Below are positions 19,753 through 30,371 of a DNA stretch of 37,146 nt, piece by piece; the stretch's first letter is position 1, and the number at the start of each line of letters is the position of its first letter. The notes beneath the pieces were generated by a model that had not been told where the DNA came from, made no database searches, and was given only the letters and a program-made list of their open reading frames with translations. The stretch covers positions 1 through 37,146 of the forward strand of contig JAILQN010000350.1 of NCBI GenBank assembly GCA_024699005.1, given 5' to 3'. A program made the position numbers and the translations under genes. This stretch comes from Clostridia bacterium. GTDB lineage: Bacteria; Bacillota_A; Clostridia; Oscillospirales; Acutalibacteraceae.

Positions 19753-22700
19753 ATGAAAGACAGTTACAAATACGACGCATTTATCTCTTACCGTCACGTC
19801 GTGCCGGATAAGCCAATCGCGGAACGGCTGCAGAAAATGCTGGAAATATACTCGCCTCCCGCGGGTATCAGTACCTGCGGAAACAACAAAAAGCTGCGTA
19901 TTTTCCGTGATGAGTCCGAATTGCCCACGAGCAACGATCTTGGCGGCGATATCCGGAGCGCTCTTGATAATTCCCGGTTTTTAATAGTGATATGCTCGCC
20001 CGAATACGAAAAATCGAAATGGTGCATGTCAGAGCTGGAGTATTTCAAGAAACTGCACAAAGGATCGAACAAAAATATCCTTACATTGCTGGCGGACGAC
20101 CCGGATAAACGCCCGACATTCCCGGAACCGCTGCGTTATGAGACCTTCAGCGAAACACTCGAAAACGGTGAGACCGTCACATCGCAAAGAGAAACGGAGC
20201 CTCTCGCGGCAAATGTTTCCGCAAAGACCCTGCCGCAGATGTTCAAAAAACTCAAATCGGAATATCTGCGCATCGCAGCTCCGCTGCTGGGATGCGGATA
20301 TGACGACCTGTATAATCGGGAACAGCGCCGTATTTCACAGCGGAAACTGCGCATAGCACTCGGTATTTCCGCGCTGCTTGCCGTTGCGGTGCTGCTGAGC
20401 ACCGCCGCGCTGCTTGCCATCCGCGGAAAAAACCGGCAAATAGCGGCGGACGCCCTTGAACTGCGAAAAAACAATTCGCAGCTGCTGCTGAAGGAATCGG
20501 AGATGCTGAAAAAGGACGGCGACCTTTACGGCGCGATTGAATCCGCCATACGGTCTTTTCCTGAGGAAGACGCCGGGTTTGCCCCGTTACCAGGGACGAT
20601 CAATCAGCTTGTTTCGTTGACAGATGCGTACTCTCCGTACGGTTACTCCTCTGTCCGCAGGGTGGAGCTCCCCTCGGTCCCCCGGAAAATCTGCCTGTTT
20701 GACAAAGGCAAACGGCTCGCGTCAGTTACCGGCGACACCTTTATCCTGACGGATACCGAAACCGGCGAGACACTGAAAACACTGTCCGTCTATTCCGATC
20801 TCGACGTAGGTTTTTATTGCGACCGGCAGATAGATACGACATCCTTCACCCGGATAAAATTCGGCGCAGCCGGTATAACCGGTCAGGTGAAAGGCATTTC
20901 ATATACCGACATGATGATCAAAGATCTGCAGGATGAGAACCAGCCAAACGGGAACGCGATATATATTCACAACCAAAACGAACAAACACTTGAAAGGATC
21001 TCGCCGGATGACGGCGGCGTTATCTGGTCTTTCGCCGTCGGAGAAGTCAAAACACTGAGCATAAGATATTGCAGCAACGAAAGCGTTATTATCCTAAAAG
21101 AAGACGCTTTTATTCTGCTGTCACCGGAAAGCGGGGAGATAATGGCAGAGATCAGCGGCGATGAGATCAAAGCTCTGATCGGAACAATCCCTTATTATGC
21201 CTATTACATGAACGACTATCTTGTATTTACCTACAATGAGAATGATTCAAAGCGGTTCTGTGTTTTCCGACGCAGCGGAAAAGATTTCGCATTTATGTAC
21301 AGCAGTGAACTGTTCCACGATGAGACCATTGTAACCCCCACGTTCCTGATACGGGATGAAACGATCTTTGCATCCGGATACGCATGTACCGGGTATATTG
21401 ACAGCACAGGATTTCTCAAAGCCTATGATCTGAACACCGGCAAGCTCAGATGGAACACGGAAGAGATATACCGGAATGTCAACGATCCTTTCATAGGATT
21501 CATAAAGCTGGAGAAAGAGGAAAACGATGCCTTCCGTGTTGTGTTTGCAGCTGTGGGAGAGCGATTGTTTTCCGTAAACGCCGAAACCGGAGAAGTCCTC
21601 GGCAAGGTACCGCTTCCCGACAAAGTGATCGATATGTATTACAGCGGAAAACACGTGTTCATGACGGATACTGCCGGCCGTGAATGGGCGGCGGTTCCGG
21701 CAAGAGTTTACGATCAAAACAAAACCGACAGTATATATCTGTATCTGATACAGGATTTTTCCACGGAAATAGAAAGATGTGCATACTGCAATAACGTGTA
21801 TGCAATATGCAGAAATAACGACCCGGCTGTGATACTGTACCGCCCGGCGGAAAACACGGAACGTGATACGCTGCGCCGCAGCGCCAACGAAAATTTTGAA
21901 CTGCAGGATATCGCTTTCAGCCCTGACTTCACTCTCGCCGCCGTATCGGAAGCCGCTCCGGGACTGCAAAATACAGGCTTTCTGCCGGATGAAACACAAC
22001 TGTATCTGATCGATACGGAATCAAAAGCCCTCCTCCATACAATTTCTTTCAAAGAAAAACAGCAGAGGGAGACCTGTTTCCTCGGAAATGATTTTGTTTC
22101 AGTCAAACTATATGACGGCTGGACATATTCATATGCTGTTTACAGCACTCTCAGCGGAGAACTGATACAGGAACTGACCGGCGATGAGTATGATTTTAGC
22201 AGCAGATTTGTCTTCAGCCCATCCGGGGATGTTTTTTTGCCTGACAAAAATGATATGATCTTCCGTATACGTCCCGGAGATGATCCGGAAAAACTTTCCG
22301 CTCTGGATTTTACTGAAAGCTCCGATGAAAAACACAGATACCATCAGCATTTGAATGACCTGTATATTTCGGGTTCCGGCAATAAACTGATTCTGTGGAT
22401 CGAGACAAGTTCTGTGACAGTACATGAATCCGGTACACGGGAGGACGGCACATTATATATGGATTATGACAGTACCGACCCCGAAGAGCATCTTTATCTG
22501 TACGATATCAATACCAAAACAGTAACAGAATGTGCTGCAGAGGAAATGTTCGCCGTCAGCGAACTGAAAGACTGTGTGTTTACAGATGATGAAAAATCGG
22601 TTTATCTGTGTTTTAAAGACAACACCATCCAGGGTTTTTCCGTTGAAACCGGCAAACAAATCTGTCTTGCGCAGTATGATGGCAATGTTGATCATTTCTT

Positions 22701-23058
22701 TACTATCGGCAGCGACTTGTGCGTCATCAATTCTTCCGGCAGTCTGATAAAGCTGCAGGTACTGGGATCGGAAATCACAGCTCTTAACAGTATCTCGCTC
22801 TACAACGGTTCTCTGACAATGTGGACGTTTGCTTATACTCCCATGGACGGCAACCGCGGTTTGCTGAAGGCCGGCAACGCCGGCGCATGGATCATCAACC
22901 CGGATACACTTGAAATCATATATGAGATAGACGACTGCTGCGGCATCGATGAAGAGCGCGGTCTGGTTTACCAACAGTATCAGGATCATCTTTACTCCTA
23001 TCCGCTGCTCAGTGACGACGGCCTGCTCGCGCTTGCCAAAGCCAAAATCGGAGAGTAA
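19753..23058 (+). CDS. TIR domain - transmembrane - beta-propeller protein
   Basis: The 1101-residue product begins with a TIR domain (about 4-150): YDAFISYRH at the start, LRIFRDESELP in the BB-loop area, FLIVICSPEYEKSKWCMSEL with the Glu (E94) at the NADase-catalytic position, and ILTLLADD. A basic stretch and one transmembrane helix (about 201-223) follow, then a helical element with DGDLYGAIESAIRSFPEE (about 250-268). Residues about 285-1095 are repeated beta-propeller blades of PQQ/WD40 type, recognisable by TxTGE-like turns (DTETGETLKTL, SPESGEIMAEI, DLNTGKLRW, NAETGEVLGKV, STLSGELIQEL). Orientation suggests a cytoplasmic TIR and an outside propeller sensor. Ribosome binding site GGAGGTGG. 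It lies directly before the tRNA-Thr integration site. A role in defence or signalling is inference. Confidence 0.85.
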   Translation: MKDSYKYDAFISYRHVVPDKPIAERLQKMLEIYSPPAGISTCGNNKKLRIFRDESELPTSNDLGGDIRSALDNSRFLIVICSPEYEKSKWCMSELEYFKKLHKGSNKNILTLLADDPDKRPTFPEPLRYETFSETLENGETVTSQRETEPLAANVSAKTLPQMFKKLKSEYLRIAAPLLGCGYDDLYNREQRRISQRKLRIALGISALLAVAVLLSTAALLAIRGKNRQIAADALELRKNNSQLLLKESEMLKKDGDLYGAIESAIRSFPEEDAGFAPLPGTINQLVSLTDAYSPYGYSSVRRVELPSVPRKICLFDKGKRLASVTGDTFILTDTETGETLKTLSVYSDLDVGFYCDRQIDTTSFTRIKFGAAGITGQVKGISYTDMMIKDLQDENQPNGNAIYIHNQNEQTLERISPDDGGVIWSFAVGEVKTLSIRYCSNESVIILKEDAFILLSPESGEIMAEISGDEIKALIGTIPYYAYYMNDYLVFTYNENDSKRFCVFRRSGKDFAFMYSSELFHDETIVTPTFLIRDETIFASGYACTGYIDSTGFLKAYDLNTGKLRWNTEEIYRNVNDPFIGFIKLEKEENDAFRVVFAAVGERLFSVNAETGEVLGKVPLPDKVIDMYYSGKHVFMTDTAGREWAAVPARVYDQNKTDSIYLYLIQDFSTEIERCAYCNNVYAICRNNDPAVILYRPAENTERDTLRRSANENFELQDIAFSPDFTLAAVSEAAPGLQNTGFLPDETQLYLIDTESKALLHTISFKEKQQRETCFLGNDFVSVKLYDGWTYSYAVYSTLSGELIQELTGDEYDFSSRFVFSPSGDVFLPDKNDMIFRIRPGDDPEKLSALDFTESSDEKHRYHQHLNDLYISGSGNKLILWIETSSVTVHESGTREDGTLYMDYDSTDPEEHLYLYDINTKTVTECAAEEMFAVSELKDCVFTDDEKSVYLCFKDNTIQGFSVETGKQICLAQYDGNVDHFFTIGSDLCVINSSGSLIKLQVLGSEITALNSISLYNGSLTMWTFAYTPMDGNRGLLKAGNAGAWIINPDTLEIIYEIDDCCGIDEERGLVYQQYQDHLYSYPLLSDDGLLALAKAKIGE

Positions 23059-23171: not shown

Positions 23172-23247
23172 GCTGTTATGGCTCAGGAGGCAGAGCGCGT
23201 CCTTGGTAAGGACGAGGTCGCCGGTTCGAATCCGGCTAACAGCTCCA
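23172..23247 (+). tRNA. tRNA-Thr (anticodon GGT)
   Basis: A full cloverleaf can be drawn. The acceptor GCTGTTA pairs with TAACAGC; the D stem is GCTC/GAGC; the anticodon stem CGTCC/GGACG has loop TTGGTAA (anticodon GGT); the T arm is GCCGG-TTCGAAT-CCGGC. CCA is encoded. The 3' part from 23203 is repeated exactly at 30196-30240: this gene is the integration target and was restored by the element. Confidence 0.96.
23203..23247. repeat. attL: 45-bp direct repeat at the left end of the element
   Basis: Identical over 45 bases to 30196-30240, ending exactly at the tRNA CCA. The flanking base differs on both sides (C versus A before; T versus A after). Confidence 0.93.
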
Positions 23248-23250
23248 TGA

Positions 23251-23292
23251 TAAAAACTCTGTATCTTTGGTGGATGCGGAGTTTTTATTTTT
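23251..23292 (+). terminator. Element-borne terminator for the tRNA
   Basis: TAAAAACTC (23251-23259) pairs with GAGTTTTTA (23279-23287), followed by a T-rich run. It replaces the original tRNA terminator, which now lies beyond attR at 30240. Confidence 0.75.
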
Positions 23293-23312
23293 CGCTGAAA
23301 ACTCATTTTAAA

Positions 23313-23353
23313 CACTATATATAGTGAGCTTGGCTTCTGAAATCTATATATAG
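23313..23353. repeat. Paired TATATA palindromes near attL
   Basis: The perfect palindrome CACTATATATAGTG (23313-23326) and a related CTATATATAG (23344-23353). They are possible binding sites for integrase accessory factors. Confidence 0.45.
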
Positions 23354-23448
23354 TATTCTCTTCGCAAGGTCTGAATTTGAAAAACCAATACCCAAATGTT
23401 AGGATATTGTGCCGTTGTTCTGACCTCATAACTGCGAAAAAGGCAAAA

Positions 23449-23553
23449 GTGCAATAAAAAGTGCAATTTTATGCGCTCTGCCGTGTGCCTTCAATGCCCG
23501 ATATATCGGGGTATTACGGGGTTTGAGCGGGTGCAATAAAAGTGCAATTTTTA
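23449..23553. repeat. GTGCAAT direct repeats, candidate integrase arm sites
   Basis: GTGCAATAAAAAGTGCAATTTT starts near 23449, given here as two GTGCAAT copies 12 bases apart. A second pair with the same layout lies at 23531-23553, inside the end of the integrase gene. The palindrome CCCGATATATCGGG (23497-23510) sits between. The position close to attL fits arm-type sites. Confidence 0.5.
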
Positions 23554-24575
23554 CCCGTATACAGTTGATCTATCGCTGTGGCTGAACTTGTAACGATCTC
23601 CCTGCCTTTAACATAGTGTTTCAATGTCATTGCCGAGGTTGCGTGTCCTGCTGTCTGTTGAGTCAACTTGATATCCTTTGTTGTATCGTATAAGTCTGTC
23701 AATACGGTTGTCCGGAATCGTATCGGGGTAATCTTGCCGTTGAACTGCGTTTCCCTCTGTATGCGTTCACACATTCGCCTGACTGCCGTATAGCTTAAAG
23801 GGGAATCACCGCCGATAATGTAACCGCTCTTGACCGTTGCCGAGGCGAGATACCGGGATGCGATACCCGATAAACCAATGACGCGCTTGCTTTGCTCTGT
23901 CTTTGGCTCCTTCACTTCCGGCTGGTTGCGTGTGGGATGCGTGACCGCTCTCCGGATATAAAGCCTCTTGTTGTCAATATCGACATCCTGCCATTGTAAA
24001 CCGAGGACTTCTTCAAGTCTGAGAGGATGAAACATCTGTAAGGCTAAATACAATCTGTCTTGCTCTCCCTGAATATCGTCAATATGTGCCGCCAAATACT
24101 GCATCTCTTCAACGCTGTAAGGGGGCGTGTCCTTGCTGACGTTGCCTTCGATCTTCAAGCGTGAGGATTTAAGAGGGTTCTTGTCTATGATATCATCATC
24201 AACTGCGGATTCCAATATCTGATTAAGAACCATCTTCACCTTGTCCTTTGTCGCTTTGGCTCCGTTTATCGAGTTAAAGAGCTGCTGTAAATCGCTGACC
24301 CTGATATCTTCAACATCCATATCACCGAAAGCAGGCAATAGATAATTCGTCAATTGCCGATCATAGCAAGCTGCGGTTGCTGTGGAAACATTCGGAACGG
24401 AATACACGTTGAACCATTCGAGGGCGTAATCGCGGAAGTTGTGCCTTTGCTTTTGCTCCGGTGCATTACCGCGACTTATGGAAACAATCTTGTTGCAATA
24501 GTCTTGTTCGTTGTTCGCGTGAATCCAATGGGAAACACCATCAACAGATACGCGTCTGTTGATCCTATAATTCAT
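23514..24575 (-). CDS. Tyrosine recombinase / phage-type integrase
   Basis: The 353-residue product (from ATG 24575) has an arm-binding N-terminus, a SAM-like core-binding domain (about 45-130, RDYALEWFNVYSVPNVS) and a catalytic domain (about 150-345). Catalytic residues are Arg186 (HPLRLEEVLGLQW), Lys225, Arg288, His311 (AGHATSAMT) and Tyr321 (KHYVKG). The usual His of the HxxR box is Ile (IRFR). AGGAG lies 11 bases before ATG 24575; the frame stays open to 24659 without a better ribosome binding site. The gene faces attL, as expected for an element integrating into a tRNA. Confidence 0.92.
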   Translation of the reverse strand: MNYRINRRVSVDGVSHWIHANNEQDYCNKIVSISRGNAPEQKQRHNFRDYALEWFNVYSVPNVSTATAACYDRQLTNYLLPAFGDMDVEDIRVSDLQQLFNSINGAKATKDKVKMVLNQILESAVDDDIIDKNPLKSSRLKIEGNVSKDTPPYSVEEMQYLAAHIDDIQGEQDRLYLALQMFHPLRLEEVLGLQWQDVDIDNKRLYIRRAVTHPTRNQPEVKEPKTEQSKRVIGLSGIASRYLASATVKSGYIIGGDSPLSYTAVRRMCERIQRETQFNGKITPIRFRTTVLTDLYDTTKDIKLTQQTAGHATSAMTLKHYVKGREIVTSSATAIDQLYTGKNCTFIAPAQTP

Positions 24576-24804
24576 TTCTTTATCAACTCCTATCGTCTGA
24601 GTTGATACATCATTTATGCATATTAAATTGTCAAGGTTCTTACCTTCATATTTTAACACATTGCCGATATCATTGTAAAGACTGTATAATAAATCGGCAT
24701 CTATTCTAACTTCTATCTAAATCAAGACCTTTCACTATAACATATTTCTAAAACATTTTAAAACTACCGAAAAAAATCGAAAACCGAAATCATAAACCAA
24801 CATA

Positions 24805-24858
24805 CGATATATAGAGGTTATATCGCTAAATATTTAAACAATATACAATATATTGTAT
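24805..24858. repeat. Two palindromes upstream of the integrase
   Basis: CGATATA-N7-TATATCG (24805-24825) and the perfect 16-bp palindrome ATACAATATATTGTAT (24843-24858). They may be regulator or recombination-directionality sites. Apart from these, and TTCGG-rich short repeats at 24860-24970, I see no gene in 24576-25010. Confidence 0.5.
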
Positions 24859-25010
24859 CATTTCGGGAGAAGGAAACCGACATCGAAACATTCGGAGATT
24901 ATTGTCAATAATTTGTCATTTATTACTGTTTCGGGAAAATTCGGGATTCATCGGAATGTTCGGAGTCTATGCCTGTTCTGTTCTGACTTCACCGAAAACT
25001 GCTGATAAAT

Positions 25011-25180
25011 AGGTGGAGCCCTTCTAATACCATTACCTAATGTTAAACATTAAATAATTAAAGTCTTAATGTATTACATTACTTAATAATATTATATATA
25101 TTTATATATTATGTATTAGACGGCCTCCACCTCGTTTATAACGATCTGCATTTTTAAACAAGGTGGAGAGCGTCTATTAC
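25011..25180. repeat. Three copies of a 20-bp motif around an AT-rich core
   Basis: The motif AGGTGGAGNNCNTCTANTAC occurs at 25011-25030 (plus), 25113-25132 (minus) and 25161-25180 (plus). The last two form an inverted repeat. Between copies 1 and 2 lies about 80 bases of almost pure A/T (25031-25112). The layout resembles an origin of replication or transfer. Confidence 0.65.
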
Positions 25181-25217
25181 TATTCTGTATTATTTATAAT
25201 ATCTTGTAATATTTCTC

Positions 25218-25288
25218 TGTACAATACGTACATACCCTCTGCACAAATTGTACATACCCTCTGCACGATCTGTGCATACCCTATGTAC
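25218..25288. repeat. Iteron-like array, 22-bp period
   Basis: Three 17-bp units at 25228-25244, 25250-25266 and 25272-25288. Each is an imperfect inverted repeat GTRCA-N7-TGYAC. Adjacent units are separated by 5 bases, and another TGTAC half-site lies at 25218-25222. A protein binding as a dimer along one DNA face is likely. Confidence 0.7.
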
Positions 25289-25297
25289 ATTTGCGCG

Positions 25298-25690
25298 TTA
25301 TAGCGTCATCGCTGCTTCGAGTTCGTCCAATGCACCGCTCATCGCTTTTCGGTTTTTCTCTTGCCGTTCCGGTGGTATCTCCTGCGGGGGAGGGAGTTCA
25401 AAAAATGTGTATGAGTTGCCGCCGTTACAAACCAAATAACCCTTATCCGTTAATTTTTCAACGGCTCTGCGATAATCGGTAATCCCTGAGTTTATGCAAT
25501 CGACTTTTGACAAATAAAAGGTAAATCCATTCTGATTTTGATTCAGATAAAACCATAATTTAAAGGCGTCACCCTTTAAGTCCATTAATGCCTGATCGCT
25601 TGCCGCAATATTAAAAATCGAATATATATGCGCTCTGTCGCTGGTTACTTTCCTGACAGTGATTCGTTTTGAGTTCGGATAACCTGCCAT
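25298..25690 (-). CDS. Winged-helix DNA-binding protein (replication-initiator-like)
   Basis: The 130-residue product has a central winged-helix pattern: GDAFKLWFYLNQNQNGFTFYL (about 39-59, given by GDAFKLWFYLNQN), then GITDYRRAVEKLTDKGYLV (recognition helix and wing, about 68-87). This resembles small HTH proteins of phage and ICE replication modules. Its ATG overlaps the HNH gene's stop (TAATG), so it is translationally coupled and last in a three-gene operon. The iteron-like array begins 10 bases after its stop codon, which makes it a candidate binder. Function is inference. Confidence 0.6.
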   Translation of the reverse strand: MAGYPNSKRITVRKVTSDRAHIYSIFNIAASDQALMDLKGDAFKLWFYLNQNQNGFTFYLSKVDCINSGITDYRRAVEKLTDKGYLVCNGGNSYTFFELPPPQEIPPERQEKNRKAMSGALDELEAAMTL

Positions 25691-26451
25691 TAAACCGTTG
25701 CCTCCGTCTGCTTCGTCAAGGCGTCCTCATTCAGTTGCCGGATTCGTTCGATCTCTGCCTGGTATTGTTCCCTGAGCTTATCATTCTGCGGATAATCTCT
25801 GACCGCTTTACTCATCTTATCCAGCTGCCTGTGTTCCGTTTGCCAAAAACACCATAATAAATTCTCTGGTCTGTTATCTTTTCTGATGCCATTGCAATGG
25901 TGTACGCTGTCGCATCCGCGCGGATTCGCAAGCATTACCATTGCAACGATCTGATGCCCTAATAAAGATTTATCCTCGCCATCAACCGACATATTATATT
26001 GTAGATAACCGTGAGCAACGATCTGCGGAGGAATAATACTTCCTCGTACCGCATTAATAACGATATCCTCATCCGGATTGTAAAAGTAAGGATATCTGCC
26101 CGGAATGACGAAATAACGGCCGCGTTCGGGTATGGGATCGCGTTCTGTGAGCTTGTCGGAAACCTCGCCTGAATCGTAATGCCAACGCCCTGACTCGTCC
26201 TGAAAGCAATTTTTAAACTTGCCGTTCCTGGTGTACTGATTTAATGACGCTCCGCTGACCTGATAATGTTTTGTAATGAAATTTGAATTTACCGTGTCGA
26301 TCTCTTTGAGCTTGTTACCGGAAACCGCCTTATAATACTGCTTGCCTTTTCTATAGTACGGATCGCCGTTCCTGTTCGCCGGAACAAAGCCGAACTGTGC
26401 AAAATAACCTTTAAAATAATCTGTTAAATCTATGATCTTTTCTTTAATCAA
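25690..26451 (-). CDS. HNH endonuclease-domain protein
   Basis: The 253-residue product has a C-terminal HNH_3-type motif: LLGHQIVAMVM (about 165), CDSVHHCNGIRKDNRPENLLW (about 180-200; key residues His-His, Asn-Gly and the NRPENLLW ending). The N-terminal 150 residues are unfamiliar and aromatic-rich (YYRKGKQYYKAV). The start is TTG 26451, seven bases after a GAGGT that lies in the end of the upstream HTH gene. It could be a homing-type nuclease, a restriction factor of the element, or a nicking enzyme for the nearby cis array. It lies between two DNA-binding protein genes, with overlaps or a gap of only 5 bases. Confidence 0.75.
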   Translation of the reverse strand: MIKEKIIDLTDYFKGYFAQFGFVPANRNGDPYYRKGKQYYKAVSGNKLKEIDTVNSNFITKHYQVSGASLNQYTRNGKFKNCFQDESGRWHYDSGEVSDKLTERDPIPERGRYFVIPGRYPYFYNPDEDIVINAVRGSIIPPQIVAHGYLQYNMSVDGEDKSLLGHQIVAMVMLANPRGCDSVHHCNGIRKDNRPENLLWCFWQTEHRQLDKMSKAVRDYPQNDKLREQYQAEIERIRQLNEDALTKQTEATV

Positions 26452-26456
26452 TATTA

Positions 26457-26669
26457 TTACCTCATTTCAATCTTTTTCATTTCTTCGTTTGCCTTCGTTA
26501 AAATACTGATATACTTTTGTATTCTGTCCTGCAATCCACTTGAAATCTTCAGGCCGCCTGAAAACCACCTTGTCAAAGTCTGGCTTGATATGCCTAACCG
26601 TCGACTAAATGTTGAAATCGGAATACCGACCTCATTTAAGACCTGCTTTGTCATCATCGCTGAGTTCAT
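26457..26669 (-). CDS. Small XRE/Cro-like HTH regulator
   Basis: The 70-residue product carries one helix-turn-helix: GIPISTFSRRLGISSQTLTRW (about 15-35, key part FSRRLGISSQTLTRWF). This is the Cro/CI or MerR-like minimal type. A strong ribosome binding site AGGAGG lies eight bases before the ATG. It is the first gene of the leftward operon driven by the promoter at 26868-26896 and could autoregulate it. Confidence 0.7.
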   Translation of the reverse strand: MNSAMMTKQVLNEVGIPISTFSRRLGISSQTLTRWFSGGLKISSGLQDRIQKYISILTKANEEMKKIEMR

Positions 26670-26867
26670 CTACTTCGCCTCCTCTCCATATACCGCACAA
26701 AAAGGAAAAATCCCCGATCCCTATAACGGGAACCGAGGCAACCGCTGAACGACCACAACATATACACTGTTCCCAAAAATTAAAGCCACCGACTGTCTCA
26801 CCATAAAAAAAACATCTCAAATGTTGCGGTGTATTGTAAAGATATATTGCTATCTCTCTACACTGCT

Positions 26868-26896
26868 ACTATACCATATCTAAAAAAGAAAGTCAA
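26868..26896 (-). promoter_or_regulatory. Promoter of the HTH-HNH-winged-helix operon
   Basis: On the minus strand: TTGACT (26896-26891), 17 bases, TATAGT (26873-26868). The leader of about 190 bases contains a small ACATTTGAGATGT hairpin followed by a T-run. Confidence 0.75.
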
Positions 26897-26985
26897 CCCT
26901 ATTTCAAAGAATTTTTATAAATTTTAAATATTTTTTGAGTCTGTAACTGACTTACAGATATATATAATATACAGATTTTTAAATG

Positions 26986-27017
26986 ATAAGTCTCCCGCGA
27001 TTATGCAGGAGACTTAT
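26986..27017. terminator. Hairpin, probable bidirectional terminator
   Basis: ATAAGTCTCC (26986-26995) pairs with GGAGACTTAT (27008-27017), flanked by A- and T-rich runs. It probably ends leftward transcription from the RHH gene. Between here and 27315 I see only a G9 tract (27033-27041), an ATATCCGTT/AACGGATAT hairpin (27188-27221) and a 15-bp sequence GCTTGCCGGGAGCGT (27066-27080) repeated at 29126-29140. Confidence 0.6.
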
Positions 27018-27315
27018 TTATATTCATATATAGGGGGGGGGTAATCCCTCCGGGAGAAAATCACCGCTTGCCGGGAGCGTCACCGTCTGACTGCGGGGCG
27101 GGATATTTGCCGAAATTTTCGACCGAAACGCCGCCGACCGGAGCCGGGGCGGAACGTGTCACCGGAATGATTGTACTGGAAAACATCATATCCGTTATCA
27201 CGGAAATTCATAAACGGATATATGGCGGAAAATGTTTCGAGCCATAACGCCGACCGGGAATTGTTCGATATTTGGTTTTTCTTGCTTGTTTATAAACCGT
27301 AAAAAAATAAAAGTC

Positions 27316-27555
27316 TTATTCGGCTGCATCCTGATCGTGTCCTGCGGGATGCTCTGCGATGTAGCAGTCTATCGCCCGGTTGATATAGGCGTTGAGGCTC
27401 ATCCCTTCGGGAACGTATCCGACAATGATATCTTTCTTACCCTTTGGAACGACAAGATTGATGCGATCGTATTTCTCTTTGAGATTTGCGTCATTCCATT
27501 TTTTATTAGCGCGTTTCTTCGCCTCGCTCATCTTTTTGTTATTATTCTCTGTCAT
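27316..27555 (-). CDS. Small ribbon-helix-helix-type protein (Arc-like)
   Basis: The 79-residue product has a Lys/Asn-rich N-terminus (SEAKKRANKKWNDAN). A short strand DRINLVVPKGKKD then precedes a helix pair ending MSLNAYINRAIDCYI, the pattern of Arc-type RHH proteins common on clostridial mobile elements. GGAGGT lies seven bases before ATG 27555. It is transcribed away from the operator cluster at 27611-27702, and its own promoter contains one operator, so it is the best candidate for the regulator of this region. Confidence 0.7.
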   Translation of the reverse strand: MTENNNKKMSEAKKRANKKWNDANLKEKYDRINLVVPKGKKDIIVGYVPEGMSLNAYINRAIDCYIAEHPAGHDQDAAE

Positions 27556-27597
27556 AATATATACCTCCGTGATTTGAATTTTTCACCGGAATATGAT

Positions 27598-27628
27598 ATC
27601 ATAAATGATGCACTTATGCAAGTGTCAA
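27598..27628 (-). promoter_or_regulatory. Promoter of the RHH gene containing operator O1
   Basis: On the minus strand: TTGACA (27628-27623) and TATGAT (27603-27598, 19-base spacer) or TTTATG (17-base spacer). The operator CACTTATGCAAGTG (27611-27624) covers the spacer and the end of the -35. Confidence 0.55.
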
Positions 27629-27725
27629 ACTGCACAAATTTATACACTTATGTTTGTGCAACATTTTTTGAAAAAACTATTGACTTTGCACTTATGTAAG
27701 TGTATAATGGCATCGTCAGTTGAGA
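27611..27725 (+). promoter_or_regulatory. Regulated promoter cassette A
   Basis: Promoter TTGACT (27680-27685), 17 bases, TATAAT (27703-27708). Operator-like sites CACTTATG-N-AAGTG occur at 27611-27624, 27645-27658 (variant TTTGTG) and 27689-27702, the last filling the promoter spacer. An 8-bp inverted repeat TGCACAAA/TTTGTGCA (27631-27660) spans the middle site. It drives the 42-residue microprotein. It is nearly the same as cassette B at 28012-28126. Confidence 0.88.
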
Positions 27726-27815
27726 GAGCGAGGGAGTCAAAGTTCCCGAAGGAAATCTGGGTTGACCTTGTTGGTACAAGAATAATGACAAGCTCGGGTG
27801 CCTCGCCTCTCTAAA
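27721..27815 (+). ncRNA. Structured leader or small RNA before the microprotein gene
   Basis: The transcript from cassette A would begin near 27715. GAGAGAGCGAGG (27722-27733) can pair with CCTCGCCTCTC (27801-27811) with one bulge. The stem closes a 67-base region containing a GGGA...TCCC hairpin and CTTGT/ACAAG pairing. Cassette B lacks this RNA, so it is specific to copy A. Confidence 0.45.
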
Positions 27816-27845
27816 GACTAAAACACTGGAAAGGAACTTTTAACA

Positions 27846-27974
27846 ATGTTCGATTTATTTGCCGATATGAAAGATTGCTTTAATACGTTCTGTGAAGATG
27901 CAGATCGGGAGATTGACCGCCTGAAGGAGCAACAGAAAAGAGAGCTTGACCGGAAGGATGAAAATACAGACTGA
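27846..27974 (+). CDS. 42-residue acidic/basic helical microprotein
   Basis: ATG 27846 follows AAAGGAAC by about eight bases. The product starts MFDLFADMKDCFNTFCED and continues as a highly charged, probably coiled helix (DREIDRLKEQQKRELDRKD). A consensus promoter lies upstream, and a terminator whose stem begins at its stop codon lies immediately downstream, which together support a real gene. I recognise no family. It could be a small regulator or an anti-repressor. Confidence 0.65.
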   Translation: MFDLFADMKDCFNTFCEDADREIDRLKEQQKRELDRKDENTD

Positions 27975-27998
27975 GAGCGGGGGAACCGCTCTTTTATT
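27974..27998 (+). terminator. Rho-independent terminator overlapping the microprotein stop
   Basis: AGAGCGG (27974-27980), loop GGGAA, CCGCTCT (27986-27992), then TTTATTATTT. Confidence 0.88.
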
Positions 27999-28011
27999 AT
28001 TTAGATAAATA

Positions 28012-28126
28012 CACTTATGCAGGTGTACATTTTGCACAAAATAATGCACTTATGTTTGTGTATGTTTTTTCAAAAAAAATCTTGACAATACACTTATGCA
28101 AGTGTATAATAGCATTGTCAGTTGAG
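28012..28126 (+). promoter_or_regulatory. Regulated promoter cassette B (copy of cassette A)
   Basis: Promoter TTGACA (28082-28087), 17 bases, TATAAT (28105-28110). Operator-like sites lie at 28012-28025 (CACTTATGCAGGTG), 28047-28060 and 28091-28104, with the same spacing as in cassette A to within one base. The same GTCAGTTGAGA follows both. It drives the gene at 28160. Confidence 0.88.
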
Positions 28127-28159
28127 ACAAGACCAAATAACCGAAAGGGAGACAATACA

Positions 28160-28483
28160 ATGAAATTCAATCTTTCATTAATAATGAAAAGAGCGTGGAC
28201 GATCTTTAAGAAAATGGGCGTGACCTTCGGGGAAGCACTTCATAGGAGCTGGCAGGCGGCGAAAGCTGAACCCGTCAACGCCGAGAGGATTCAGAAAGCA
28301 AAAGCCGAGGCGGGCATTGTGGAAGAAACAAACACCTGGGCGGGCTGGCGTGATCTTGGTTATATGGTATCTCACGGAATGAAAGCTTTATTCGGATGTG
28401 ATCTCATCTATGCAAGCAAAGGTGACGGGGAAATATATAAAGCCCGGTTCTTTGGAAAAAGTCAAGTTGAGGCAATCGCCTAA
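28160..28483 (+). CDS. Conserved small protein of mobile elements, function unknown
   Basis: The 107-residue product starts MKFNLSLIMKRAWTIFKKMG and contains GEALHRSWQAAKAE (about 28-41). This MKRAW...F.EALxxSW pattern is familiar from small proteins on Firmicute phages and integrative elements, whose function I do not know. The middle is Trp-rich (NTWAGWRDLGYM). Ribosome binding site AAAGGGAG precedes ATG 28160. The gene is under cassette B and probably co-transcribed with 28541. Confidence 0.75.
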   Translation: MKFNLSLIMKRAWTIFKKMGVTFGEALHRSWQAAKAEPVNAERIQKAKAEAGIVEETNTWAGWRDLGYMVSHGMKALFGCDLIYASKGDGEIYKARFFGKSQVEAIA

Positions 28484-28540
28484 CAATAAACAATCAGCTG
28501 ACCTATCGGCTGTTATACGGGGAGGAAGGCAAACACCGAT

Positions 28541-28840
28541 ATGAAATATTACGCGACATACGACATTTACGACCTTGAGGGATATGAAATATCTGATCTC
28601 TTTGCGTTCCCGACGCGGGCGGCGCGTGATGCTTGGGTAGAGTTCAGGGATGACTGTTCGGTCCTCTTCGGAAGGAACGCCGACAACGCATTATTCGAGA
28701 GACGCGCAATCGACGGTGTAGAGGTTGCGGATGCAAAAAGAATAATCAAGGATGGTGAATACTGGTTCATCGAAAGTGATGAATATCTGCCCGGCGTGAA
28801 GATATATGTTGCTTATCCGCTGCGGTTTGGATGGAAATAG
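28541..28840 (+). CDS. Hypothetical protein of the element
   Basis: The 99-residue product is acidic and aromatic-rich (YYATYDIYDLEGYEISDLF at the start; ARDAWVEFRDDC in the middle). It has no transmembrane segment or motif that I recognise. A purine-rich GGGGAGGAAGG lies upstream of ATG 28541 at a rather long distance. It follows the gene at 28160 by 57 bases and is followed by a terminator, so the two form one unit under cassette B. An antirestriction or host-takeover role would be a guess. Confidence 0.65.
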   Translation: MKYYATYDIYDLEGYEISDLFAFPTRAARDAWVEFRDDCSVLFGRNADNALFERRAIDGVEVADAKRIIKDGEYWFIESDEYLPGVKIYVAYPLRFGWK

Positions 28841-28873
28841 AACGAACTGAAAGACCTTGACGGAGAATATAAG

Positions 28874-28904
28874 AAGCGGCTGAAAGATGCCGCTTTGATT
28901 TTTG
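28874..28904 (+). terminator. Terminator of the cassette-B operon
   Basis: AAGCGGC (28874-28880), 8-base loop, GCCGCTT (28889-28895), then TGATTTTTG. In 28905-29221 I see no gene. Confidence 0.75.
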
Positions 28905-29221
28905 CGCGTTGAACCCCTTGTAATTCTTTAGGTTTGAGCAATGGAATCTTTAGCAATGATATGATATAACCTTTTAATATTGGAATGTGAAACTGTGGAA
29001 ACAACAAGCGAGAACGCGCAGAAATCGACGAGAACGCACGATGCCCCTTTTATGGTATTGAATAATCAATAAAACAATACTTTTATATACGGCAAATCTG
29101 AGCGAGATTAGAACCATATACAATGGCTTGCCGGGAGCGTTTTGATAATCATAAAAAATGTAAACCATATCCGAATCGCTGATCTGTGTATGGAAAACGG
29201 AGCTTGACCGGAACTGAATAA

Positions 29222-29252
29222 GAAAAACGGCGGAGAGCTTGCCTCCTTGCCG
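29222..29252 (-). terminator. Terminator of the serine recombinase gene
   Basis: On the minus strand, CGGCAAGGAG pairs with CTCTCCGCCG (imperfect), followed by TTTTTC. Confidence 0.7.
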
Positions 29253-29262
29253 TGTCCGTGTT

Positions 29263-29832
29263 TTATGCTGTCGCTGTCTGTCGATCTTTTAAGAGTTTAT
29301 CGAGTGTCGGTCTGCTGACGCCGAGAGCCTTTGCAAACTGAACCTTGTTTATTTCGCGCCTGTTATATCGTTCTAACAGTTCGCGGAATAATGATTCATC
29401 GATCTGCTTGACCTGGCCGCCTTTATACTTGCCGTCACGTTTTGCGACTGCGATGCCTTCGCGCTGCCGTTCAAGAAGATTTGCACGTTCAAATTCGGCT
29501 ATCGCGGAAATCATTGTCAACATCAATTTACCCGTTGCCGTGTTGGTGTCAATATTCTCTTTATGTGATACAAGAAAAACACCTTTGCTCTTGAGTGTTT
29601 CAACGATCTGTAAAAGGTCTGCTGTCGATCTTGCAAGCCTTGAGAAATCGTGTATATAAATCGTGTCTCCCTCTCTGACAAAATCGAGCATCTCTTTCAG
29701 CTTCGGTCTGTTGGTGTCCTTTGCGCTTGCCTTTTCAATGTAAGTCTTTTCTATGCCGTATTGTTTCAGTCCTTCGACCTGCCGGGCTTCGTTCTGTTCA
29801 ATCGTGCTGACGCGGATGTAAGCAACTTTCAT
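29263..29832 (-). CDS. Serine recombinase (resolvase/invertase family)
   Basis: The 189-residue product has the N-terminal catalytic domain with the nucleophile Ser9 in YIRVSTIEQN, HDFSRLARSTADLL (about 60-75) and ERANLLERQREGI (E-helix, about 115-130). A C-terminal helix-turn-helix (INKVQFAKALGVSRPTLDKLL) follows. The length is that of Tn3-type resolvases and Hin-type invertases, not large serine integrases. Possible roles are dimer resolution or DNA inversion. ATG 29832 follows GGGAG. It lies about 360 bases from attR. Confidence 0.92.
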   Translation of the reverse strand: MKVAYIRVSTIEQNEARQVEGLKQYGIEKTYIEKASAKDTNRPKLKEMLDFVREGDTIYIHDFSRLARSTADLLQIVETLKSKGVFLVSHKENIDTNTATGKLMLTMISAIAEFERANLLERQREGIAVAKRDGKYKGGQVKQIDESLFRELLERYNRREINKVQFAKALGVSRPTLDKLLKDRQTATA

Positions 29833-29866
29833 TTCGTATAATCTCCCTTGTTTGAATTTCAAGAGA

Positions 29867-29918
29867 ATAATATCACAATGTAAATTTAAAGTCAAACACT
29901 TTCTTTACATTTTGTAAA
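29867..29918 (-). promoter_or_regulatory. Promoter of the serine recombinase and inverted repeat
   Basis: On the minus strand: TTGACT (29895-29890), 17 bases, TATTAT (29872-29867). Just upstream is TTTAC-N5-GTAAA (29904-29918), a possible recombinase or regulator site. Confidence 0.65.
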
Positions 29919-29975
29919 ATAATTCAAAATTTAATTTAGATTTAACAGAATATGAGCTTGACCGAATGTCAATAT

Positions 29976-30041
29976 AGGGTATACCCTGATTTGACAAAAT
30001 AATAAACCTCCTGCGCCTGAAAGCAAAAGGGGGTGGTTTAT
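29976..30041. repeat. Palindrome and hairpin near attR
   Basis: The perfect palindrome AGGGTATACCCT (29976-29987), and a hairpin ATAAACC (30002-30008) with GGTTTAT (30035-30041) followed by TTTT. The latter may terminate transcription coming from outside the element. No gene is seen in 29919-30195. Confidence 0.5.
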
Positions 30042-30195
30042 ATTTTGGGAATAAAAAGGGAATCATAAAAACCTATAATGTGCGCTTCTTCACTGTCGCC
30101 GGGGATTTTTGGAACGAAAAAAGAACCTTGAACAATTATACAATATGCACAAATAATATATCAAAATTTTTGTAATTAATGTTTGTTTTTCAACA

Positions 30196-30240
30196 TTGGT
30201 AAGGACGAGGTCGCCGGTTCGAATCCGGCTAACAGCTCCA
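30196..30240. repeat. attR: 45-bp direct repeat at the right end of the element
   Basis: Exact copy of the tRNA-Thr 3' part (positions 32-76 of the tRNA, including CCA). Without the 5' half it cannot form a tRNA. Confidence 0.93.
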
Positions 30241-30284
30241 AAGCGAAAATCCTGTCGTGAGGTCGGCAGGATTTTCGCTTTGTA
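30240..30284 (+). terminator. Original terminator of tRNA-Thr
   Basis: A perfect 15-bp stem AAAGCGAAAATCCTG (30240-30254) / CAGGATTTTCGCTTT (30267-30281), then GTATT. It now lies 7 kb from the tRNA it served. Confidence 0.8.
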
Positions 30285-30308
30285 TTATTCATTCTTCAGT
30301 CTTAAGTT

Positions 30309-30360
30309 TTCAGTATTCATTAAATCGACAGGATTTTCTGAATGAATAATGAATACTGAA
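30309..30360. repeat. Inverted dispersed repeat
   Basis: TTCAGTATTCATT (30309-30321) and AATGAATACTGAA (30348-30360) are an exact inverted pair. The same 13-mer occurs at 14753-14765. Confidence 0.6.
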
Positions 30361-30371
30361 GAAAGAGAGTT

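Follow-up and report, generated by a model that had tools for sequence, protein, structure and literature searches.

Inside the tRNA-Thr gene of an uncultured relative of gut and rumen clostridia we located a precisely placed, 7-kilobase foreign-looking unit, which on balance we take to be a 6,993-bp plasmid-like replicon that integrates and relies for its transfer on a helper (a phage or a conjugative element). Integration is well supported and replication moderately so, while transfer we only infer. The element belongs among the hitchhiking elements, a kind already known. Mobile islands lacking a relaxase have been reported (PMC5704250), as have minimal phage satellites (PMC10803314). Its features within the window (the whole stretch of 37,146 nucleotides that was analysed) are collected in Table 1.

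Table 1. Features of the element and its borders (positions in the window).
Feature	Position	Strand	Basis
tRNA-Thr(GGT), integration target	23172-23247	+	ARAGORN
attL, final 45 bp of tRNA-Thr(GGT)	23203-23247	+	repeat analysis
Terminator-like hairpin, inside element, directly 3′ of tRNA gene	23249-23289	+	fold z -7.5
AGTGCAAT/GTGCAAT repeat cluster between attL and integrase	23445-23550	.	repeat analysis
Tyrosine integrase	23514-24659	-	Pfam Phage_integrase 3e-16
Three 22-bp iteron-like repeats, TGYRC-N5-GYRCATACC core	25215-25280	.	repeat analysis
Winged-helix protein (wH), candidate replication initiator	25298-25690	-	family relatives; winged-helix model pLDDT 65
HNH nuclease	25690-26451	-	PHROG HNH 1.4e-12
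Small HTH protein, possible regulator or excisionase	26457-26669	-	weak HTH matches (Pfam, PHROG)
Inverted repeat, 12 pairs, 1 mismatch, in HTH-RHH gap	26986-27017	.	repeat analysis
RHH repressor (phrog_13890)	27316-27555	-	PHROG + relatives
First operator triplet + promoter	27608-27708	.	promoter 27680-27708 (-35 27680-27685, -10 27703-27708)
42-aa microprotein	27846-27974	+	ORF with RBS-like start
Second operator triplet + promoter	28009-28110	.	promoter 28082-28110
107-aa protein	28160-28483	+	sub-threshold AcrIIA3-family similarity
99-aa protein, no assigned function	28541-28840	+	ORF + profile searches
Small serine recombinase, resolvase/invertase type	29263-29832	-	Pfam Resolvase 5e-44, phrog_125 1.5e-62
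30-bp res-like palindrome TGTC...GACA, upstream of serine recombinase	29967-29996	.	palindrome search + shuffles
attR, exact 45-bp duplicate of tRNA-Thr 3′ part	30196-30240	+	repeat analysis
Terminator-like hairpin, chromosomal side	30240-30281	+	fold z -7.25

The two 45-bp att copies are identical and the distance between their starts gives the size of the unit; the shuffled control for this repeat gave a mean of 0.00 matches (100 shuffles). GC content is 41.2% in the element against 51.4% in the flanks, and the tetranucleotide distance is 0.042 as compared to 0.013-0.030 for 24 overlapping 7-kb flank windows. This step in base composition agrees with the att borders. An integrase is found together with identical att repeats, one of which completes the tRNA, as is required of an integrated element. 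Behind each 45-bp copy stands a strong terminator-like hairpin; the one behind attL lies in the element and the one behind attR on the chromosomal side, where it is presumably the original tRNA-Thr terminator. Apart from the tRNA, all Rfam matches in the window fell under the gathering score. The first-pass annotation had drawn these borders from the exact tRNA-Thr repeat, which the repeat analysis, shuffles and GC step bear out, and had listed an integrase, a serine recombinase, an HTH/HNH/winged-helix operon, an RHH protein, a microprotein and two small proteins, all of which were recovered by ORF and profile analysis.

The integrase likely starts at 24575, giving 353 aa. Nine relatives (47-61% identity) come from nine other clostridial genomes, drawn from 7 of 400 and 4 of 394 genomes with two common to both sets. 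The tRNA-Thr(GGT) gene directly adjoins seven of them and a 45-bp copy of its end adjoins the other two, so that the site specificity is common to all nine fetched, while the cargo next to them varies locus by locus. Because these relatives at tRNA-Thr carry differing cargo, the integrase is, judged from its sequence relationships, of a mobile, tRNA-Thr-specific type; the refuting case named in the first-pass annotation, invariable DNA between the 45-bp copies in relatives, is not what we find. In our reading the tyrosine integrase joins a 45-bp attP by recombination to the 3′ portion of tRNA-Thr(GGT), and the tRNA stays whole and gains a new terminator; sequence and relatives strongly support this step. 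The AGTGCAAT/GTGCAAT cluster may hold arm-type integrase sites. TGCAA-containing repeats are present at the corresponding place in L104r, L111 and L112r and were absent there in L105, L106 and L108r.

Once excised, the circle would be replicated by wH from the iteron region, for which support is moderate. With E <= 1e-3 as threshold, a wH-family profile built from three sequences matched 2,111 protein clusters; the window protein as a single query retrieved only itself from the protein database. It may be noted that 20 of 21 aligned members match phrog_270, a replication initiation protein (E <= 0.1; best 2e-8), and that the window protein itself, 26-37% identical to its aligned relatives, matched neither phrog_270 nor any replication family in profile searches. 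The family as a family therefore appears replication-initiator-like and wH a moderately supported candidate initiator. Weak matches to a transcriptional-regulator phrog were also obtained for 12 of the 21 members, and to a MarR model for 11, so wH may be a transcriptional regulator rather than an initiator. The repeat array that had been assigned to the element at first reading consists of three units, each including a perfect or imperfect palindrome, and may act as the origin; in five relative loci examined no iterons adjoin wH. The HNH nuclease, for which one relative was found (75% identity), perhaps nicks at or near the origin, although this is a guess. The serine recombinase would resolve multimers at the res-like site, as gene and site together suggest. 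This palindrome was reached by none of 300 shuffles, and when 32 relatives of the serine recombinase were examined, comparable ones (0 of 60 shuffles) turned up in just 6.

The regulated promoters expected from the first reading are two, both of the form TTGACN-17-TATAAT with a predicted operator palindrome inside the spacer, and their regions are 82% identical across 95 bp. The sequence CACTTATGNNNGTG is present six times in the window, all within 27611-28104 (shuffles mean 0.00). Under these promoters lie the three small genes. For the 42-aa product the profile searches gave no convincing family, and the AcrIIA3-family similarity of the 107-aa protein is at E 0.018, its 15 bits lying below the cut-off of 70. 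The stretch from the first promoter to the microprotein was considered as a structured RNA leader, a reading that was rejected (z -0.7). RHH would repress its own gene and the two small-gene promoters via six operators in or before the promoter spacers; this model is suggested by an architecture that both a relative and phage contigs retain. In the relative, L104r, the RHH promoter region is 72% identical to that of the window across 105 bp (E 7e-10) with the operator-in-spacer layout kept. RHH relatives with similar operators lie in phage contigs L128, L129 and L131 alongside head, connector or small-terminase genes, while operators are absent in L132, one of the five RHH-bearing phage contigs. 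A predicted switch of this type is hence also seen in tailed-phage contigs. Relief of the repression, plausibly by an incoming helper, would switch the element on.

That the element stands alone, as first annotated, does not hold, as we found L104r (G056) and four further bounded elements that contain remote wH relatives (L116, 4,263 bp; L125, 5,309 bp; L127, 6,510 bp; L117, 7,005 bp). L104r has 7,616 bp, a 45-bp att, an integrase, a putative Rep, an RHH protein 51% identical to that of the window and a serine recombinase adjoining attR. The other four are targeted to tRNA-Pro ends or a gene 3′ end, and in two of them a serine recombinase is close to one att. L104r and L117 (G167) resemble the window element in size (7.0-7.6 kb), in the exact att at a tRNA and in the placing of integrase and small serine recombinase at opposite ends. 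The RHH switch is held in common with L104r, which has a different putative Rep, and the wH protein with L117, which differs in its tRNA-Pro target, gene orientation and cargo and whose wH frame contains a TAG. Among the genomes searched no other carries the flanks of the window. Right-flank searches disclosed no empty site: for L117 three loci were read and for L111 two, all lacking a tRNA there, L106 gave short matches only, and for L104r no other genome matched.

How the element moves was approached by profile searches of its nine proteins against four libraries. No relaxase, terminase or capsid match of meaningful score was obtained, in line with the first impression that transfer and capsid genes are not visible; below that level stand only a MobP2 match of the RHH protein (13.7 bits against a cut-off of 200) and a portal match of the 42-aa ORF (13 bits, E 0.09). 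The terminase, capsid and tail genes of a prophage and the relaxase of a canonical IME were thus not recognised. Defence cargo was likewise rejected, as PADLOC gave only weak matches of the HNH protein. For the helper-dependent replicon that we prefer, the helper would carry out the transfer, and we lean slightly towards packaging by a tailed phage that has this RHH-type switch rather than towards mobilisation by conjugation.

The nearest competitor, which we regard as possible but less than even, is a minimal phage satellite that is excised on helper infection, replicated and packaged in helper virions in the manner of the PICMI (phage-inducible chromosomal minimalist islands) of Vibrionaceae. 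The size and gene economy resemble those of PICMI115 (6,110 bp), which has an integrase, a regulator and a primase but lacks capsid-remodelling genes (PMC10803314). PICMI in general are alike in length (~6-7 kb), integrase, regulator, replication gene, direct repeats and the absence of capsid genes, and the RHH switch is common to the element and tailed phages. But PICMI lie at fis and depend on int, alpA and a primase of the DUF3987/DUF5906 type, whereas our element sits at tRNA-Thr and has wH, HNH and a resolvase-type recombinase in place of AlpA and primase; neither AlpA (Pfam matches up to E 1) nor such a primase nor a fis-adjacent site was found. Also, the resolvase would split concatemers and so hinder packaging in that form, and IMG/VR scans with HNH, wH and integrase gave no relative.

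A relaxase-less mobilisable island of the iOriT type, having as its sole transfer feature an oriT for the relaxase of a conjugative element, we consider unlikely. Such islands are already described (PMC5704250), loci of the same integrase lineage encode FtsK/SpoIIIE-family ATPases and Rep-like proteins, and the element has long non-coding gaps with the inverted repeat. Yet of the seven non-coding segments only the RHH promoter matched the loci compared (L104 twice, 22 bp of L040), plasmid matches are confined to the serine recombinase and att, and no relaxosome gene was recognised. Neither of these two comparisons showed oriT-like similarity, though oriTs are short and often uncharacterised. 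MGI/iOriT elements share the tyrosine integrase and the absence of a relaxase, but gammaproteobacterial MGI are 18-33 kb long and their oriT is similar to the one in the helper ICE; no such oriT was recognised here. Canonical Firmicutes IMEs also have a tyrosine integrase at a tRNA 3′ end, some with replication proteins, but differ in their relaxase. Rather improbable is an integrative plasmid spread rarely by transformation, vesicles or chance packaging and with no dedicated helper: a replication-like protein, iterons and a resolvase are typical of plasmids, but profile searches recognised no partition gene, and effective transfer is suggested by the fact that similar elements recur in several genomes and at several target genes. 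That a larger ICE or prophage at a tRNA hotspot has decayed to this remnant is very unlikely, as despite long non-coding gaps (at most 646 bp, between the HTH and RHH genes) and tandem arrays at the tRNA-Thr site of L109r and L107, the frames of integrase, wH, HNH and recombinase are all open, the att copies identical, the operators and palindromes regular, and relatives of the same size exist.

Many genomic islands carry integrases and have no known means of transfer, and the helper-dependent replicon that we propose is one such case, compact and with precise borders, whose relatives are met again in several genomes of clostridia and at several target genes. Tycheposons are tRNA-integrating elements of marine picocyanobacteria with no transfer machinery of their own, and the likeness to them in both respects is by description only. 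They are named in PMC11389934. Tentatively, the element may represent a large unnamed class of 4-8-kb integrative replicons in gut Clostridia, marked by wH (>2,000 sequence clusters), often with an HNH or GIY-YIG nuclease gene alongside and with a serine resolvase next to attP on the side away from the integrase, lacking virion and conjugation genes and moving by a route not yet described, this branch being timed by a repressor switch common to tailed phages. The marker family has no Pfam domain recorded for any of the 120 members listed, and no relatives of it were found in the phage, plasmid and IMG/VR collections searched. With the wH profile, the 45-bp att and the RHH operators, existing metagenomes can be searched for circles, for packaging in virions and for helpers. 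As to the serine recombinase, relatives of up to 70% identity occur at 38 IMG/VR loci, and its ORF is open as far as 29895.

The only tRNA gene called in the window by ARAGORN is tRNA-Thr(GGT), and its last 45 bp recur as an exact copy at attR; shuffled sequence gave a mean of 0.00 matches to this repeat. GC content is 41.2% within the element as against 51.4% in the flanks, and the tetranucleotide distance to the flanks is 0.042, each of 24 overlapping flank windows giving less (0.013-0.030). With two exact copies, the shuffles and the GC step, the first-pass annotation was right to draw an element bounded by an exact tRNA-Thr repeat. A strong terminator-like hairpin follows immediately after each 45-bp copy (z of -7.5 and -7.25). 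The new tRNA terminator seems to have been brought in by the element, and the original one likely now lies beyond attR. Past the terminator a chromosomal inverted repeat is present, and a 1101-aa ORF stands at the other side.

Features of the window and repeat-bounded elements at related loci
Feature	Position (strand)	Repeat	Span (bp)	Remark
1101-aa ORF	19753-23058			directly upstream of tRNA-Thr; N-terminus TIR-like by eye
tRNA-Thr(GGT)	23172-23247			
attL	23203-23247	45 bp	6,993 (spacing to attR)	
Tyrosine integrase	23514-24659 (-)			
Three 22-bp repeats	25215-25280			directly behind wH gene
Winged-helix protein (wH)	25298-25690 (-)			
HNH	25690-26451 (-)			
HTH	26457-26669 (-)			
Inverted repeat, then G run	26986-27042			HTH-RHH gap
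Ribbon-helix-helix protein (RHH)	27316-27555 (-)			
Serine recombinase	29263-29832 (-)			
attR	30196-30240	45 bp		
Chromosomal inverted repeat	30289-30366			arms 30289-30312 and 30343-30366
L104r (integrase relative)		45 bp	7,616	
L106 (integrase relative)		47 bp	9,062	
L111 (integrase relative)		45 bp	13,894	
L107 (integrase relative)		2 mismatches	2,695	
L116 (wH locus)		38 bp	4,263	end resembles tRNA-Pro by eye, but no tRNA call
L117 (wH locus)		48 bp	7,005	tRNA-Pro
L127 (wH locus)		49 bp	6,510	tRNA-Pro
L125 (wH locus)		43 bp	5,309	can encode DDVQNVYHNWEQE-stop, presumably a YebC-like C-terminus

Relatives of the integrase were sought in 400 genomes of the family of G009 (the genome whose NadE contig carries the label Oscillospiraceae) and 394 of its order, reached through NadE loci; genomes were sampled at one per species and the sets overlap between searches. 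Host markers disagree on family, the best IspH-S1 match among the genomes searched being 45%. Relatives were found in 7 genomes of the family set (E <= 1e-70) and 4 of the order set (E <= 1e-80), 9 of them distinct, and in all 9 the distance from the end of the integrase gene to tRNA-Thr(GGT), or to a 45-bp copy of a tRNA-Thr end, is 143-220 bp (267 bp in the window). Seven lie at the tRNA gene itself and two, L109r and L107, at a copy; for L107 the distance (~200 bp) was read from coordinates and the L104r sequence served to identify the copy. A second att copy was absent within the stretch read in L105, L108r, L110r (where the stretch ends with the contig) and L112r. Gene content behind the integrase, as called with a simple script, varies: FtsK/SpoIIIE-family ATPases are present in L105 and L106 (Pfam) and L108r (by similarity), Rep-like proteins in L106 (RNA_helicase, 2e-8), L105 (by eye only) and L108r (L108 3012-3899, CRESS-like, Viral_Rep E 1.8e-5, just under the Pfam cut-off), the last near the FtsK-like ATPase in a tRNA-Thr element, and reverse transcriptases plus an amidase in L112r. 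Therefore, one integrase lineage brings many cargo kinds to a single site. Invariant DNA between the 45-bp copies in relatives had been named as fatal to the first reading; the cargo differs from one relative to the next, and this test did not refute the reading. Tandem arrays at tRNA-Thr occur in L109r and L107, and in L109r the tRNA-Thr-type integrase is preceded by 7.0 kb that carry a DnaC-like loader and an unrelated integrase. At the position of the HxLR box usual in tyrosine recombinases, the consensus of 8 aligned members of this integrase subfamily has PIRFRTT.

Gene calls and profile searches confirmed the gene set originally listed: the integrase, adjacent HTH, HNH and wH genes, RHH (phrog_13890), three small plus-strand genes and the serine recombinase. 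The claimed lack of visible transfer or capsid genes held as well, since Pfam, PHROGs and NCBIfam gave no relaxase, terminase or capsid match at a meaningful score for the element proteins with E up to 1; a 42-aa ORF has a 13-bit portal match (PHROGs, E 0.09) and RHH a MobP2 match of 13.7 bits against an NCBIfam cut-off of 200. PADLOC returned nothing beyond weak matches of the HNH protein, whose single protein-database relative is 75% identical and lies on a 6,124-bp contig. Serine recombinase relatives are common in IMG/VR (38 loci). The far edge of a 30-bp TGTC...GACA palindrome, matched in 0 of 300 mononucleotide shuffles, lies 164 bp from the probable serine recombinase start; palindromes at 152-185 bp, reached in 0 of 60 shuffles, are present in 6 of 32 relatives examined, two of these (L133 and L135) being identical in sequence.

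The repeat array and regulated promoters ascribed to the element were both recovered, the latter at the sequence level. By eye, each 22-bp repeat bears a palindrome; those of the first and third units are perfect, that of the second has a single mismatch, and the changes between third and first are paired. Six putative CACTTATGNNNGTG operators lie as two triplets, and the third operator of each triplet fills the 17 bp between the TTGACN and TATAAT boxes of a promoter. The sister element L104r has the same operator spacer in its promoter; its RHH is 51% identical over 72 residues and the stretch from RHH to the next gene 72% over 105 bp (E 7e-10). It also carries an integrase, a 307-aa protein (phrog_9501, function unknown; Rep by eye), small genes and what looks by eye like a RelBE pair, with a serine recombinase next to attR. 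L111 has an RHH of phrog_13890 with three TTATGTACATA palindromic motifs nearby. A pattern search gave at least 5 IMG/VR contigs with close RHH relatives; among the matches listed, CACTT...AAGTG-like operators were seen by eye in four (L128-L131, two of identical sequence) and not in L132. Head, connector or small-terminase proteins are also found in L128, L129 and L131, so the predicted RHH switch is also a tailed-phage switch. The inverted repeat and G run in the HTH-RHH gap are a candidate terminator, oriT or replication signal. A ~145-bp stretch flanking the L104r element on the right is a dispersed repeat of its genome (G056), present in 6 other contigs (L184-L189) at 85-98% identity.

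Used as a single query, the window wH matched nothing except itself among 5.8 billion proteins. Single-genome searches found relatives in 3 of 300 genomes (E <= 1e-6), and a 3-sequence profile reached 2,111 protein clusters; no Pfam domain is recorded for any of the 120 listed, and a single one of these is named, as 'hypothetical protein'. Of 21 aligned family members, 20 match phrog_270 (replication initiation protein; E <= 0.1, best 2e-8); the window wH has no PHROG match up to E 1 and must therefore be the remaining member. Matches to a phrog of transcriptional regulators (12 of 21, best 0.003) and to MarR_2 (11 of 21, best 0.003) count against a replication initiator. The structure predicted for the window wH (pLDDT 65, 56 sequences) shows a winged helix flanked by a strand at the N-terminus and a helix at the C-terminus; fold searches with it returned generic winged-helix matches only. 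The 21-member profile found 6 loci in 5 of 350 genomes (E <= 1e-5), four between long exact repeats; no bounding repeat was found for L118 and L126. All four bounded elements, their genes again called by the simple script, have a tyrosine recombinase distant from the window integrase, L117 and L125 have a serine recombinase near one end, and Pfam detected a relaxase or virion protein in none of 10 proteins chosen from the four. In the window the neighbour of the wH gene is HNH; in L117 and L126 it is a GIY-YIG-like gene, recognised in L117 at E 4e-4 (slightly below the Pfam cut-off) and in L126 by 79% identity to the L117 gene. A tblastn search of 72,556 plasmids and 50,697 phages with the L116 wH gave no match, nor did the wH profile in IMG/VR. 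In-frame TAG codons occur in wH homologues L119, L120 (G353:C31, G167:C22) and L121 (G309:C4), at sites that are Gln in relatives (for L121, which has two, this holds for the first). The site is shared by L119 and L120, whose compared pieces show 90-95% identity. Such codons may reflect decay, programmed truncation or amber suppression.

As far as sequence can tell, the element has paired att sites, an integrase of a site-specific lineage and a conserved repressor-operator layout. The element would excise, wH would replicate it from the iteron region, multimers would be resolved and RHH would repress the small genes. The shared RHH switch hints at transfer linked to phages, and the resolvase-type recombinase and FtsK-bearing kin hint at a plasmid-like or conjugative life; given these hints, we call the element a putative helper-dependent integrative replicon, whose helper may be either phage or conjugative. 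The nearest known kind in size and gene economy is the PICMI, a Vibrionaceae phage satellite (PMC10803314), but two of the three PICMI core proteins (AlpA and the DUF3987/DUF5906 primase) gave no Pfam hit up to E 1 here, and the target is tRNA-Thr instead of fis. The nearest conjugative kind is the relaxase-less islands (PMC5704250), but no oriT was recognised in our element. PMC11389934 places such elements among the hitchers and anticipates further, unknown members; outside any named family, the element is filed as a variant within this broad kind.
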